A DNA stretch of 64,000 nucleotides from the NCBI GenBank assembly GCA_903917565.1, contig CAIXBB010000005.1:1-64000 (forward strand), read 5' to 3'. A program made the translations under genes and the position numbers. The first letter of the stretch is position 1. Each line of letters begins with the position of its first letter. Of this stretch, positions 53,328-58,607 are shown piece by piece. Under the pieces are notes generated by a model. It did no database searches and was not told where the DNA came from. It saw only the letters and a program-made list of their open reading frames with translations. Source of the DNA: an uncultured cyanobacterium (GTDB taxonomy: Bacteria; Cyanobacteriota; Cyanobacteriia; PCC-6307; Cyanobiaceae).

Positions 53328-53693
53328 ATGGCTGACCCCGCCATTCACCGGATCTATCACTACAGCGGCTGCGGCACCTGCCGCAAAGCGCTGGCGTGGA
53401 TTCGGGAACGGCAGACTCCCTTCGAAGCGATCGACATCACCACCAGCCCACCCTCGCTGGATCTGCTCAGCGAGGCCCATCGCCAGCTGGGCGGTTTGGG
53501 CCGGCTCTTCAACACCAGTGGCCAGAGCTATCGGGCCCTGGGGGCTGCCTCGGTGAAGGCGATGGACACGGCCACCGCCCTGGCGGCCCTGGCCGCTGAC
53601 GGGCGCCTGATCAAGCGTCCCTTCCTGGTCACGGCCTCGGGACACATCGTCACCGGCTTCCGTCCCGAGGAATGGGAGGAGTTGCTCGGCTAG
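53328..53693 (+). CDS. ArsC/Spx-family thioredoxin-fold protein
   Basis: A 121-residue member of the ArsC/Spx/MgsR family. Cys15 and Cys18 form a CxxC pair (SGCGTCRKAL), which in Spx is a redox switch and in ArsC the reduction site. VDITTSPPSLDLL-like and KRPFLVTASGHIVTGFRPEEW blocks match the family, the Arg-rich loop included. It follows the ferredoxin by 6 bases and overlaps the 3' end of the convergent membrane-protein gene by 4 bases. Regulator or reductase cannot be decided. Confidence 0.82.
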   Translation: MADPAIHRIYHYSGCGTCRKALAWIRERQTPFEAIDITTSPPSLDLLSEAHRQLGGLGRLFNTSGQSYRALGAASVKAMDTATALAALAADGRLIKRPFLVTASGHIVTGFRPEEWEELLG

Positions 53694-55207
53694 GCCGGGT
53701 CGTTGCCTTCGCCCGGCCCATGGGATCCCTTCACCATCAGCTGGTCGAGCTCCTCGATCAACCCTTCGATGCCGGCCCGGCTGATCTGGCTCAGGTAGTT
53801 GCCCTTGAACTCCTCCAGGAAGGTGCAGAGCAGTTGCTGGGAGCGCTCCAGGGCCGGCCCGCTCTCCAGGGCTTCGGCCAGTTCCTCCCAGAAGCGGTCG
53901 ATGAAGCGCTGCAGCAACTCCAGCTGCTGATCGTCGCGCCGACTGAGGCGCTCGCCGGTGGTTCGGGTGAGGTCGAGCAGGCTGTCCACCATCCCGCCGG
54001 CGAGCTGGCGAGTGAGCCCCTTCTCCACCTGCAGCAACGGCTGGAGCTGGCGCAGGCCCGGCGGGACGATGGCGTTCTGGAGGCTCTGCTGCAGGGCATG
54101 GCCGAGCACCCCCTGGAGCTCGGGGGCCAGGCGCGGGGCCACCCGCACCAGCAGCAGGGGGCCCCAGATGCGCACCAGTTCCACCAGTTCCCGTTCGTTG
54201 TTGCTGACGACCATCTGGTGGCTGCGCAGGGCCCGGATCCGCATCGGCCAGCGGCGGGAGCGAATCAGCTGCTGGAGGCCATCGATCAGCTGCAGCGCCA
54301 GCACCTCGAACAGCTCGACCGCCAGCAGGGCCACCACCCCGCGGCTGATGACGGCCCGGATCGGCTCGATGGTGATCAATCCGCTGGTGTGAAGCCGCTC
54401 CAGCACCGGCACCACCCGCAGCAGACGCCAGAAGGGGAGCAGCAGGGGCAGATCGATCCAGCGCCGCAGCAGGGCCTTGTTCCAGCTCAGGCCCGGCAGG
54501 CGGCGGCGCAGGCGGATGGCCCGCAGCAGGATGTCCAGGGCGAAGACGCTCTGGAACAGGATCAGGTCGTAGCGCCAGAAATGGTCGGTGGGCCGGCCGT
54601 TCTCATCGATCGAGCGCCAGTAGGTGGTGGCCACCAGGGGCAGCACCTGCTGGCGCCAGAACAACCGCTCCCGCTCCCAGGGATGGGAGGAGAGCCAGAT
54701 GGGGCTCAGCAACACCGCCGCCGCCTGCTTGGACGAGTCCCGGTCGGCCCGTTGGCGCAGGCGGTTCTTGATCTTCTCCAGGGTGCCGGAGGTGCCCGAG
54801 GCCAGCATCGGGTTGGAGTCGATCATCTCGACGGTGAGCCGCACCTGCTCCGCCAGGAGCTGGCGCTGGATGGGGCTGACGTCCCCCGGGGGGGGCTGGC
54901 GCAGGGCCGCGTCCATCCGGTTGAAATGGCGCAGATAGGCCTGGGTCTCGCGATGGGGTTCGATCCCCTTGATCGGATCCACCCAGGGGGTGATGTCGGG
55001 GATGAAGGTGAGCGGCACCACCAGGGGCACCGACGGCAGCGGATAGAGGTTGCGCTGCAGCCAGAAGGTGCGCAGGGGGATGTAGCTGACGTCGAACGCC
55101 ACCCACAGCAGATTCAGGGCGGCCCAGAGCGCCACGAAGCGATCCCAGCGGCGGCCCAGGCCACTCGAGGGCAGGGCCAGGGTCTGGTGCCAGCGTGGGC
55201 GTGCCAT
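53690..55207 (-). CDS. Large membrane protein of unknown function
   Basis: The product is 505 residues from ATG 55207. I do not recognise a family. After an N-terminal hydrophobic region (about residues 20-75) there is a middle block with DLILFQSVFALDILLRAIRLRRRL, ALLRRWIDLPLLLPF and WRLLRVVPVLERLH, an arrangement of acidic, basic and hydrophobic residues that resembles S2-S4 of voltage-sensor membrane proteins. A further membrane region follows (VISRGVVALLAVELFEVLALQLID). The C-terminal 250 residues are soluble and helical, so a pore is not obvious. It diverges from lepB. Confidence 0.65.
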   Translation of the reverse strand: MARPRWHQTLALPSSGLGRRWDRFVALWAALNLLWVAFDVSYIPLRTFWLQRNLYPLPSVPLVVPLTFIPDITPWVDPIKGIEPHRETQAYLRHFNRMDAALRQPPPGDVSPIQRQLLAEQVRLTVEMIDSNPMLASGTSGTLEKIKNRLRQRADRDSSKQAAAVLLSPIWLSSHPWERERLFWRQQVLPLVATTYWRSIDENGRPTDHFWRYDLILFQSVFALDILLRAIRLRRRLPGLSWNKALLRRWIDLPLLLPFWRLLRVVPVLERLHTSGLITIEPIRAVISRGVVALLAVELFEVLALQLIDGLQQLIRSRRWPMRIRALRSHQMVVSNNERELVELVRIWGPLLLVRVAPRLAPELQGVLGHALQQSLQNAIVPPGLRQLQPLLQVEKGLTRQLAGGMVDSLLDLTRTTGERLSRRDDQQLELLQRFIDRFWEELAEALESGPALERSQQLLCTFLEEFKGNYLSQISRAGIEGLIEELDQLMVKGSHGPGEGNDPA

Positions 55208-55229
55208 CGGGAACGCGGCGGGCGGATGC

Positions 55230-56021
55230 GTGCCTAATCTGCCTCCCGACCACGGAACCTGCCGCACGAACCCCTTGAGCCCATCGGATCCACAGGCCGA
55301 CGACGGTGCCCGCGACGAGCCGGGGCCTCCCCAGGAGGCGCAGCCTGACCCGGAGGTGCGGGGGGAGAGCCCCTGGGCTTTCTGGCGCAGCGTCCTGATC
55401 ACCCTGGCGGTGGCCCTGGGGATTCGCCAGTTCGTGCTGGAGGCCCGCTACATCCCCTCAGGCTCCATGCTCCCGGGTCTGCAGCTGCAGGACCGGCTGC
55501 TGGTGGAGAAGCTGTCCTTCCGCCAGCGGGCCCCCAGACGCGGCGAAGTGGTGGTGTTCCACTCGCCCTACCACTTCGATCCGGTCCTCACCGGGCCCAC
55601 CAAGCCGGGAGGGCTGAGCTGCCTGCTGGTCAACCTTCCCCTGATCGGTTCCCTGCCAGGAATCCAGCAGCCGGCCTGCGATGCCTACATCAAGCGGGTG
55701 ATCGGGCTGCCTGGAGAGAGGGTGGTTGCCGATCCCCGCGGCCGGGTCACGATCAACAGCCGTCCCCTCGATGAGCCCTACGTCCGCAATTACTGCCCCG
55801 TCGATCGGCAGGGCCTCGGGCCCTGCCGCACCCTCGACGTGGTGGTGCCCCCTGGCCATCTGGTGGTGATGGGAGACAACCGGGCCAACAGCTGGGATGC
55901 CCGCTTCTGGCCCGGAGGGCCGCTGTTGCCGGAAACCGAACTGATCGGCCGGGCCTTCTGGCGGTTCTTCCCGTTCAGTTCGGCAGGCCCGCTGCCAGAA
56001 CCCAGCCAACCGGATCGGTGA
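55230..56021 (+). CDS. lepB: Signal peptidase I
   Basis: A protein of 263 residues from GTG 55230, or 248 from TTG 55275. A single N-terminal membrane helix (VLITLAVALGIRQFVLEARYI) anchors it. IPSGSMLPGL carries the catalytic Ser (79 by the longer start) and YIKRVIGLPGE the catalytic Lys (155); GDNRANSWDAR is box E. It removes signal peptides from exported proteins at the membrane. The short space to the divergent gene at 55207 favours the later TTG start. Its 3' end overlaps the convergent dihydroorotase-like gene by 47 bases. Confidence 0.93.
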   Translation: MPNLPPDHGTCRTNPLSPSDPQADDGARDEPGPPQEAQPDPEVRGESPWAFWRSVLITLAVALGIRQFVLEARYIPSGSMLPGLQLQDRLLVEKLSFRQRAPRRGEVVVFHSPYHFDPVLTGPTKPGGLSCLLVNLPLIGSLPGIQQPACDAYIKRVIGLPGERVVADPRGRVTINSRPLDEPYVRNYCPVDRQGLGPCRTLDVVVPPGHLVVMGDNRANSWDARFWPGGPLLPETELIGRAFWRFFPFSSAGPLPEPSQPDR

Positions 56022-57255
56022 GTCCCGTGGCGACCACCCGCCCCTGCAGCTGACGCTCCCGGCAGGGCCTGTTGGCCGCCAGGGATCCCGAGGGCGCGTC
56101 GGCCCAGCACCAGGAATGGCCAGGATCGAACAGCACCCACTGGCGCGTACCGGGGGACAGCGCCGGCTCAGGCCGTCCCAGGAAGCGGGCAGGACCCCAG
56201 CAGAGCGCCTGCCAGAGCTGCGCCGCCCGCCAGCCCTGGCGCCCCACCAGCTCCTCCCAGAGCAGGGGCAGCACCAGGCCATGGCCCGCCACCCCGGGGC
56301 GTCGCTGATCCAGGGGCAACAGCTCCTCTTCGGCATCGAGGGCCACGTGATGGACCGCAACGGCGCTGATGACGCCATCGGCGAGGGCCTCGATCAGGGA
56401 CCGTCGGTCGTCCGGTCCCCCCAGGGCGGGCTCCAGCAACCAGCCGTCGTCGGCCGGATCCAGGCCACCGCTGTCCGCGACCAGATGCCACCAGCCCACC
56501 GAAGCCATCGGTAGGTGGGCCTGGCGCCGCAGCCGCTCCACCGCTTCAGCGGTGGAGACGTTCATCAGCCGCAGGTTGAGGGCGGGCAGATCGTCGGCCA
56601 GGGAAAGGAGGGTTTCGAGGGGAAAGGTTTCACTGCCGGGGGGATCGAGGGGCCAACCCGCCCGCAGGGCCTCCACCCGCTCCCGCACGAACCCCCGCTG
56701 GGCCAACGATCCGTCCCGCGGCGGCAGCAGCACCGGCCGATCCCCCATCTCGGCGAGCCTCAGGCCCCGTTCCAGCAGGTCGATCGGCGGCAGGATCGCC
56801 CCGGCCGCCAGACCGCAGGCGCCGGCCGCAAGCTGCTCGGCATGGGGCGCCAGCTCCCGGTCGAGGCCATCGACGCTGAAGCTGCCCCATCGGAGCAGTT
56901 GCATGGGCGCGGGCCAGCTCCAGCGCAGCCGCTCAGGCCGGTCCCGCCAGGTGGGGGCCCAGGGCAGCAGGGCCACGGTTCCGTAGCCACCGGAGGCGGC
57001 GGCCTCCCCGAGGCTGGCCAGGGTTTCCGCCCTCCCCTGCAGGGGCTCTTCCAAGACGCTGTGGGGATCCACCAGGGCTGGGCCGAGCCAGCACCCCCCG
57101 GTCTCTGCGGTGGCGCAGGGCACCCCCGACACCGTCGCCGGATCGGGGTCGATCGCCACCAGCACCCCATCCTCCAGCAGCACGTCGGCCCGCCGCGGCG
57201 GCCGGTCGGGGGCTTCCAGCAGATTCACCCCGCGGATCAGCAGCTGACGGACCAT
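55975..57255 (-). CDS. Dihydroorotase-like amidohydrolase, probably not catalytic
   Basis: A 426-residue protein with the overall form of dihydroorotase (PyrC2-like). The metal motif, normally DxHxHxREP, reads DPHSVLEEP: the first His remains, the second His is Val and the Arg is Glu. The later ATDHAPH-type active-site block reads AVHHVALD, losing the catalytic Asp. It probably does not hydrolyse dihydroorotate; such inactive homologues can stabilise aspartate transcarbamoylase, but nothing here proves it. It precedes the tandem phosphatase in reverse and overlaps lepB at the 3' end. Confidence 0.8.
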   Translation of the reverse strand: MVRQLLIRGVNLLEAPDRPPRRADVLLEDGVLVAIDPDPATVSGVPCATAETGGCWLGPALVDPHSVLEEPLQGRAETLASLGEAAASGGYGTVALLPWAPTWRDRPERLRWSWPAPMQLLRWGSFSVDGLDRELAPHAEQLAAGACGLAAGAILPPIDLLERGLRLAEMGDRPVLLPPRDGSLAQRGFVRERVEALRAGWPLDPPGSETFPLETLLSLADDLPALNLRLMNVSTAEAVERLRRQAHLPMASVGWWHLVADSGGLDPADDGWLLEPALGGPDDRRSLIEALADGVISAVAVHHVALDAEEELLPLDQRRPGVAGHGLVLPLLWEELVGRQGWRAAQLWQALCWGPARFLGRPEPALSPGTRQWVLFDPGHSWCWADAPSGSLAANRPCRERQLQGRVVATGLTDPVGWVLAAGLPN

Positions 57256-57281: not shown

Positions 57282-58607
57282 CTAGAGGGCGCCGGCGGCC
57301 GTGCGGTCGATCACTCCCCCCAGATGGGCGGTGAGGTTCAGGGCGGTCACCACCGGCGGTGCCGTCGCCCCCCGGGGGTAGTCGACCACGGTGACACCGC
57401 CGTTCCCCTGCTTCACGGTCCAGATGTCGGCGGGGGAGAGGCCGAGCAAGGCGCAGAGGATGGTCTTGTTGACCGCATCATGGGCGACCACCAGAGCCGT
57501 CTCCTGCGGACCCAGTCCGGCGGCGATGCGGTTCCAGGCCGCCAGGGACCGGGCCCAGACCTCACCGATGGTCTCGCCCTCGGGCATCTGCACCGTTTCG
57601 GGGCTGCGTTTCCAGGCGGCCAGGAGATCGGGCCAGCCGGCGGCGATCTCGCTCTCCAGCCGGCCCTCCCAGAGGCCATGGCCGATCTCCCGAAGCCCCC
57701 GGGTGGTGGTCAGGGGCACGCCGGGATGGGAGGCCAGGATCACCTCGGCGGTGCGCAGCGGGCGGGCCATGTCGCTGCTGTAGGCCCGCTGCAACGGGAT
57801 CGGGGCGAGAAAGGCCCGCGCCGCCTCGGCCTGGGCCAGGCCATGGGCATTGAGTGGAATGTCGATCTGGCCCTGGAAACGGCCCTCCCGGTTCCAGTCG
57901 GTCTCGCCGTGGCGCACCAGCAGCAACCGGCAGCCCGCACCGGCCGGCGGCAGGGGGGCACCCAGGTGGGAGGTGCCGTTGAGGGACTCCAGCTGCACCG
58001 AGGGGCGGCCCTCCTCCCCGTGAGCCAGGTTGAGCACCGAAATCGAGGCGTTGTCGAGTCGAAGGCGCAGGAAACCACTGGCCGGCAACCCGAGCAGGTG
58101 CAGCACCAGGCAGCGCAGGATGGCGTTGTGGGCCACCACGAGCACGGTGTCGTCGTCCCCATGGCGTGCCAGCAGCCGATCGGCGAAGCGGCCCGCCTGC
58201 GCCAGCAGTTCGGGTACCGGGAGAAAACGGCTGCCGTCGGGGCGCTGCAGCTCCATGGTCTCGGGGGCTTCGCGCCAGCGACGCTCCTGCTCCGGATCCA
58301 GAGCCCGCACCTCGCTGCGCAGCAGGCCGCTCCAGGGAGCCAGATCGATCTCCAGCAGGTCGTCGTCGTAGCGGGGGGGCAGCGGGCTGCCATGGCTGGC
58401 CAGCAGGGCCGCCGCCGTGGCGCTGGCCCGCTGCAGCGGCGAGCTGTAGACGGCCTGAAACGCCAGTTCCGCCAGGGCCTCTCCCGTACGACGGGCCTGG
58501 AGCTGCCCTTCCTCGGTGAGGTTGGAGAGGTCATCACGTCCCTGGATGCGGTGCTCCAGGTTGAAGCTGCTCAGCCCATGGCGGACCAGCACGATGCGAA
58601 GGGGCAA
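57282..58607 (-). CDS. Tandem histidine phosphatase (phosphoglycerate-mutase-like)
   Basis: A 441-residue protein with two histidine-phosphatase domains. Domain 1 has Arg9-His10-Gly11, SSPLQRASATA, DLLEIDLAPW and VVAHNAIL. Domain 2 (from about residue 228) has LVRHGETDWNREGRFQGQIDIPLN, YSSDMARPLRTAE, LREIGHGLWEGR and VVAHDAVN, so both appear to keep the catalytic residues. Similar tandem proteins of photosynthetic organisms include 2-carboxyarabinitol-1-phosphate phosphatase-like enzymes, which relieve RuBisCO inhibition; the substrate here is not known. It sits upstream of the dihydroorotase-like gene on the same strand. Confidence 0.87.
   Translation of the reverse strand: MPLRIVLVRHGLSSFNLEHRIQGRDDLSNLTEEGQLQARRTGEALAELAFQAVYSSPLQRASATAAALLASHGSPLPPRYDDDLLEIDLAPWSGLLRSEVRALDPEQERRWREAPETMELQRPDGSRFLPVPELLAQAGRFADRLLARHGDDDTVLVVAHNAILRCLVLHLLGLPASGFLRLRLDNASISVLNLAHGEEGRPSVQLESLNGTSHLGAPLPPAGAGCRLLLVRHGETDWNREGRFQGQIDIPLNAHGLAQAEAARAFLAPIPLQRAYSSDMARPLRTAEVILASHPGVPLTTTRGLREIGHGLWEGRLESEIAAGWPDLLAAWKRSPETVQMPEGETIGEVWARSLAAWNRIAAGLGPQETALVVAHDAVNKTILCALLGLSPADIWTVKQGNGGVTVVDYPRGATAPPVVTALNLTAHLGGVIDRTAAGAL

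Follow-up and report, generated by a model that had tools for sequence, protein, structure and literature searches.

A dihydroorotase homologue with a degenerate metal site, widespread in cyanobacteria and possibly a partner of aspartate transcarbamoylase

The window (the whole stretch of 64,000 nt of DNA analysed here) harbors a full-length gene for a homologue of class I dihydroorotases which very probably has no dihydroorotase activity, to judge by the residues at its former metal site. We infer this lack of hydrolase activity from the sequence of a protein that is nevertheless kept in nearly all sampled genomes of its class. As to its present role, we favor, at about even odds, a partnership with aspartate transcarbamoylase (PyrB), in which the protein would be non-essential and without catalysis of its own and would stabilise or tune that enzyme; that PyrB is the partner, and in which way it is acted upon, we infer with uncertainty. 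In the following, “class” presumably denotes the photosynthetic cyanobacteria and “family” the family of Cyanobium, Synechococcus, and Prochlorococcus, as suggested by the names of the genomes matched. The gene and its product are referred to as pseudo-dihydroorotase.

Residues at the former metal site

The best curated profile match of the window protein is the NCBIfam model PRK07369 “dihydroorotase” (E 2.2e-77, 260.6 bits), and TIGR00857 pyrC_multi matches as well (E 3.5e-32, 111.9 bits). Both matches span nearly the full protein and stay under the curated cut-offs (456 and 279.05, respectively), and Pfam models gave no match to the protein at E <= 1. The best sequence matches in the PDB are class I dihydroorotases of Staphylococcus aureus, Bacillus anthracis, and Thermus thermophilus.

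The six ligand positions of the Aquifex aeolicus dihydroorotase, as named in the available excerpt of PMC3880350, are H61, H63, D153, H180, H232, and D305. In an alignment with active class I dihydroorotases they correspond to H65, V67, G152, P178, N232, and H302 of the window protein (Table 1), so that H65 is the only one of the six ligands left. The earlier note had read the HxH metal pair as H-S-V and the catalytic Asp block as AVHHVALD, and both readings were recovered (H65-S66-V67 and A300 to D307, respectively). Its further statement that the metal ligands are gone holds for five of the six positions, whereas the first His of the HxH pair is still present. A leftover metal site in the window protein appears very unlikely from these residues. 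Furthermore, A. aeolicus R65, the Asn of the NPP motif, and H309, which we take to be substrate-binding residues, are replaced by E69, E275, and L306. A misalignment of the motifs was considered and rejected, since the reading holds across 195 sequences, also with a lenient position of the Asp.

Table 1. Positions of the pseudo-dihydroorotase gene, its former metal-site residues, and the neighboring genes in the window
Feature	Position	Strand	Remarks
Pseudo-dihydroorotase gene	55975..57255	(-)	426 aa, ATG start, full-length frame
Former HxH metal pair, reading H65-S66-V67	57055..57063	(-)	Alignment with active class I enzymes
Site of the bridging Asp (A. aeolicus D153), here G152 (A151 adjoining)	56800..56802	(-)	Alignment uncertain by +/-1 residue
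Equivalent of A. aeolicus H180, here P178	56722..56724	(-)	Alignment
Equivalent of A. aeolicus H232, here N232	56560..56562	(-)	Alignment
Former catalytic Asp block A300-V-H-H-V-A-L-D307; equivalent of D305 is H302	56335..56358	(-)	Alignment
Two-domain histidine phosphatase (Pfam His_Phos_1, two stretches)	57282..58607	(-)	Directly upstream, gap of 26 bp
Signal peptidase I (Peptidase_S26)	55230..56021	(+)	Convergent; ends overlap the pseudo-dihydroorotase gene by 47 bp
570-aa frame	53690-55402	(-)	No Pfam or NCBIfam match; beside the cluster in 77/80 named family loci

Fold and selection

A structure model of the window protein, built from a 56-sequence alignment, has a mean pLDDT of 92.7 and a pTM of 0.93. 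Foldseek and a second aligner both rank bacterial class I dihydroorotases first, with TM values of 0.83-0.85 for the top seven structure matches, a Z of 47.1 to 2z00, and a Z of 45.3 (411 aligned, rmsd 3.1) to 3d6n_A, the A. aeolicus chain from the transcarbamoylase complex. No solved PyrC' or cyanobacterial pseudo-dihydroorotase is among the fold matches listed, which excludes nothing. The confident model together with the class I matches (Z of 45-47 to active enzymes) argues that the dihydroorotase fold is retained end to end, as the earlier note had supposed, and homology to class I dihydroorotases is thus supported by both profile and fold. The retained fold says nothing of function.

Pairwise dN/dS values of the window gene are 0.229-0.244 against its four closest relatives and 0.36-0.46 against two more distant ones. 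The lower values and the full-length frames agree with the earlier claim that this is not a decaying pseudogene, and a single decaying copy is excluded by purifying selection and class-wide conservation.

Distribution in the class and two kinds of degenerate site

Outside the window's family, all but one of 129 sampled class genomes (128) have a PRK07369 match above the curated cut-off, and the remaining one (G066) carries a fragment with 393.9 bits. Within the family, the model matches in 41 of the 57 genomes of the phylum sample. With the window protein as query, 134 of the 151 family genomes sampled gave a match, and some of the other 17 are incomplete assemblies. A further scan covered named genomes; the best 80 of its 160 encoding places were taken on and lie in Cyanobium, Synechococcus, Vulcanococcus, Aphanothece, and metagenome bins. 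One relative with 60% identity lies on CALPNT020000013.1 (L165), in a bin titled Bifidobacterium breve; given so clear a relative, the contig is probably cyanobacterial and the bin probably mislabelled.

At most three of the six ligands occur in each of 195 distinct class sequences (113 from the family group of the window, 82 from other families), and this count holds even when an Asp one residue off the D153 position is accepted. The two groups differ in what has taken the place of the ligands. In the family group, counted over 114 rows (the 113 distinct sequences with the window protein entered twice), the first His is kept in 111 and H232 is replaced by N in 110. In the other families, Y stands for the first His and R for H232 (79/82 each), the second His (H63) is kept in 60/82 and D305 in 79/82, and many members carry an Asp adjoining the D153 position, so that a remnant of the metal site is possible there. 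One degenerate site common to 113 family sequences and another in 82 others can hardly be a chance reading. Sixty-four positions are conserved to at least 90% in both groups, 14 of them with different residues, including H/Y65 and N/R232. The pocket sets are Y, R, D, H, Y in most families and H, N, H, L in the window's family, and such clade-specific conservation suggests that the pocket was fixed anew and did not merely drift. All six ligands are present in each of the four relatives from elsewhere in the phylum (L104-L107).

Genomes that lost the gene

Eighteen genomes keep PyrB without the gene. Three of them belong to genus g4 (G364, G466, and G482) and 15 to genus g2, which has 16 genomes in the phylum sample; class II PyrC is also kept wherever this was tested. 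These genomes are small (1.6-1.9 Mb) and presumably belong to Prochlorococcus. In G364 and G482, the phosphatase and signal peptidase genes still flank short stumps of the two gene ends, and the loci L264-L266 accordingly represent an in-place deletion with stumps in two of three genomes; the remnant in G466 is not significant and no stump was found in g2. The PyrB proteins of the three g4 genomes, compared by eye with those of two gene-bearing congeners, are unchanged in length and conserved blocks. Since PyrB is kept without the gene in g2 and g4, the protein is no obligate assembly factor there and is dispensable in these genomes. An obligate role in PyrB assembly throughout the class was therefore set aside.

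Descent and linkage to pyrB

A tree of 59 rows, including four alphaproteobacterial PyrC' sequences and no Pseudomonas PyrC', unites all class members in one clade (support 100/100), and the window's family is nested inside this PRK07369 clade (100/100) on a long stem. The group nearest to the class clade is the alphaproteobacterial PyrC' (93/89), followed by the intact relatives from the phylum and Firmicutes. This placement of the PyrC' as nearest kin is tentative, as two alternative groupings that imply separate losses of the ligands were not rejected (p-AU 0.178 and 0.171).

An intact relative adjoins pyrB on one strand in 11 listed genomes from families f31 and f40, as confirmed in the sequence for three of them (L105-L107), and in family f38 the two genes lie on different contigs in eight genomes. 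Each of the four alphaproteobacterial PyrC' in the tree is encoded in a locus with pyrB. According to the available part of PMC5929573, disruption of smc01361 of Sinorhizobium meliloti, which lies beside pyrB in a locus of a type represented among these PyrC', led to pyrimidine auxotrophy in a screen, and its authors propose PyrX. For Pseudomonas aeruginosa, the available part of PMC7053772 states that the pseudo-subunit is needed for transcarbamoylase activity. The pyrB linkage of the intact relatives and of the PyrC' kin makes a PyrB-bound ancestor the best reading of the origin. In the class itself, pyrB was found beside the gene in none of 82 genomes outside the family (flanks of 1.5-4 kb, less where a contig ends) and was not found in the flanks of 129 family loci; in the window's own genome, pyrB lies on contig C16 and the pseudo-dihydroorotase gene on C5.

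Genomic neighborhood and candidate partners

The most conserved neighbor is the histidine phosphatase, located directly upstream on the same strand in 51 of 82 genomes outside the family (17/28 families, gap of less than 500 bp) and in all 129 family loci (80/80, 29/29, and 20/20). The phosphatase of the window scores best against models of the phosphoserine phosphatase PspA and alpha-ribazole phosphatase. A gene matching PRK07575, a further dihydroorotase model, is found within a few kb in 10/82 genomes (7/28 families, two copies broken) and in five family loci, often with the convergent signal peptidase I gene between it and the pseudo-dihydroorotase gene. The order CAAX protease, phosphatase, pseudo-dihydroorotase, and signal peptidase is common to the window and distant families such as f8 and f10. 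We regard the neighborhood as an old cluster, which through PRK07575 lends weak support to a link with pyrimidine synthesis and gives equal reason to suspect the phosphatase as a partner.

A partnership with this phosphatase, for instance as scaffold or sensor subunit, with the former tie to PyrB gone, is an unlikely role. Besides the upstream linkage, it would fit the conservation of the old active site in new residues per clade, as could be the case for a new ligand site. Evolutionary rates bear on it in two ways: the partial rate correlation between pseudo-dihydroorotase and phosphatase (0.46, p 0.005, 19 genomes) is among the two highest, but PyrB and ArgF, a pair without such a link, scored equally (0.46). 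Moreover, the linkage is absent in 31/82 genomes outside the family, the neighborhood indicates co-regulation at most, and the phosphatase is kept in eight of eight gene-minus genomes tested (G364, G466, G482, G163, G169, G207, G378, and G107) and thus has no need of the pseudo-dihydroorotase.

For PyrB itself, the partial rate correlation with the pseudo-dihydroorotase is 0.66 given ArgF (25 genomes) and 0.12 given ArgF and the phosphatase (19 genomes). The excess of the stem of the window's family (ratio of pico-to-other and other-to-other paths) amounts to 2.46 for the pseudo-dihydroorotase, 2.49 for PyrB, and 1.84 for ArgF; the phosphatase, compared in 19 genomes, has 2.01. As the branch-wise test was unsupportive and two control genes only were available, nothing is drawn from this comparison of stem rates.

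A combination of both partners is conceivable as well, and quite unlikely in our estimate: by binding a metabolite or partner in its dead pocket, the protein might serve as a sensor or regulatory subunit through which pyrimidine synthesis is coupled to the upstream phosphatase, and the streamlined lineages would have dropped this control and kept the enzymes. A moonlighting or structural role with a partner other than those named here has a rather small chance. It would accord with the class-wide conservation, the clade-specific pocket residues, and the retention of the gene irrespective of the dihydroorotase type, and as the remainder option it meets nothing that speaks specifically against it.

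Other dihydroorotases in the same genomes

The earlier note had argued that a second, active enzyme must exist, and an intact class II PyrC with an HxH pair is indeed encoded in the window's own genome (G000:C30:27569-28600), scoring 435.3 bits where the cut-off is 292.95. Its motifs are complete, with DDWHVHLRDG, CKLYPAHATTNA, LLIHGEVT, LEHITT, and GTDSAPH. The lack of a second dihydroorotase is thereby excluded.

In 184 of 186 sampled class genomes, class II PyrC or PRK07575 scores above the respective cut-off. All 57 family genomes of the sample carry class II PyrC. Of the 129 genomes outside the family, 105 have PRK07575, which is the sole such dihydroorotase found in 103, and 24 have class II PyrC; both occur in two (G195 and G249). 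Neither was found over the cut-off in G131 and G243, pointing to an assembly gap or a further dihydroorotase. Stop codons interrupt the PRK07575 copies of G195, G249, and G183, and the broken copy beside a class II PyrC in the first two resembles an enzyme replacement in progress. PRK07575 is the presumed working dihydroorotase in most of the class, yet all complete copies examined have Q for the first His, reading Q-V-H where H-x-H is expected (copies read: L080, L082, L086-L088, L218, L227, L237, L238, L242-L244, and L246). Ligand counts alone are therefore no proof of inactivity. The pseudo-dihydroorotase is present whichever type of dihydroorotase a genome has, including 23 of the 24 class II genomes outside the family, in which it scores over its cut-off or nearly so.

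That the pseudo-dihydroorotase is itself an active dihydroorotase, or another cyclic amidohydrolase working without the usual metal site, has been considered and has a slim chance. Apart from the precedent of PRK07575, a Pseudomonas PyrC paralogue without zinc residues is cited as active in the available part of PMC2770081, and members outside the family often keep H63, D305, and an Asp beside the D153 position. On the other hand, the window protein retains H65 only and has also exchanged the equivalents of R65, the NPP Asn, and H309, all sampled class genomes but two have another dihydroorotase over a curated cut-off, and the g2 and g4 genomes live without the gene. That the protein is a subunit of the remaining dihydroorotase, with dead and live chains in one oligomer, is highly improbable despite the vicinity of PRK07575 in some loci, since the gene was kept after PRK07575 gave way to class II PyrC, an unrelated subfamily, also in the window's genome, and its retention whichever dihydroorotase is present speaks against a subunit of either.

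Proposed history and significance

For the partnership with PyrB, the following course of events is proposed. The ancestor would have been a dihydroorotase encoded next to pyrB and working in a complex with PyrB, as in Aquifex. The chemistry may then have passed to a separate dihydroorotase, at first of the PRK07575 type and later, in the lineage of the window, to class II PyrC. The protein would have lost its metal and thereby its hydrolase activity, with the full-length fold kept throughout the class. Today, the protein may act through contact with PyrB, in a manner comparable to PyrC'/PyrX of class A2 transcarbamoylases.

If this holds true, a curated model gives the name dihydroorotase to a gene that does not encode this enzyme, and cyanobacterial annotations as well as metabolic models presumably miscount dihydroorotase. 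Aspartate transcarbamoylase with a dead subunit, known from proteobacteria, would extend to a whole photosynthetic class, where the gene for this subunit lies apart from pyrB and some lineages have deleted it naturally. These natural deletions would provide ready-made comparisons for the question why a dead enzyme subunit is kept. A cyanobacterial pseudo-dihydroorotase was found in none of the listed titles and abstract openings of open-licence papers, and a prior mention is possible. The phylogeny of dihydroorotases is reportedly treated in Fields 1999 and Labedan 2004.

Comparison with known systems

The closest counterpart is PyrC'/PyrX/pDHO of class A2 (Pseudomonas; smc01361 of Sinorhizobium), which like the window protein combines a class I fold and lost ligands with a separate dihydroorotase in the genome. 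In contrast, PyrC'/PyrX genes are located beside pyrB, whereas the class members described here are not and in most cases have the phosphatase upstream; other residues occupy the dead site, and the gene has been lost in small genomes which keep PyrB. The dihydroorotase of A. aeolicus (class A1, dodecameric transcarbamoylase complex, PDB 3d6n and 4bjh) has the same fold and represents a lineage type linked to PyrB, but it is active and zinc-bound, whereas the window protein retains one of six ligands. The best-fitting model, NCBIfam PRK07369 (NF005614), holds the orthologues outside the family (128 genomes over the cut-off), while the window protein scores 260.6 against 456; the model name “dihydroorotase” implies an activity unsupported by the sequences of its members and is probably wrong.

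Two further systems show partial likeness. The Zur-regulated PyrC2 of Pseudomonas is likewise a PyrC paralogue without zinc residues, but it is reported as active and zinc-regulated in the available parts of PMC2770081 and PMC6103462, whereas the gene described here is fixed class-wide. In the fungal CAD-like protein, a dead dihydroorotase domain is kept together with the transcarbamoylase, according to the available part of PMC7053772; there the domain is fused, whereas the cyanobacterial pseudo-dihydroorotase is a free protein.
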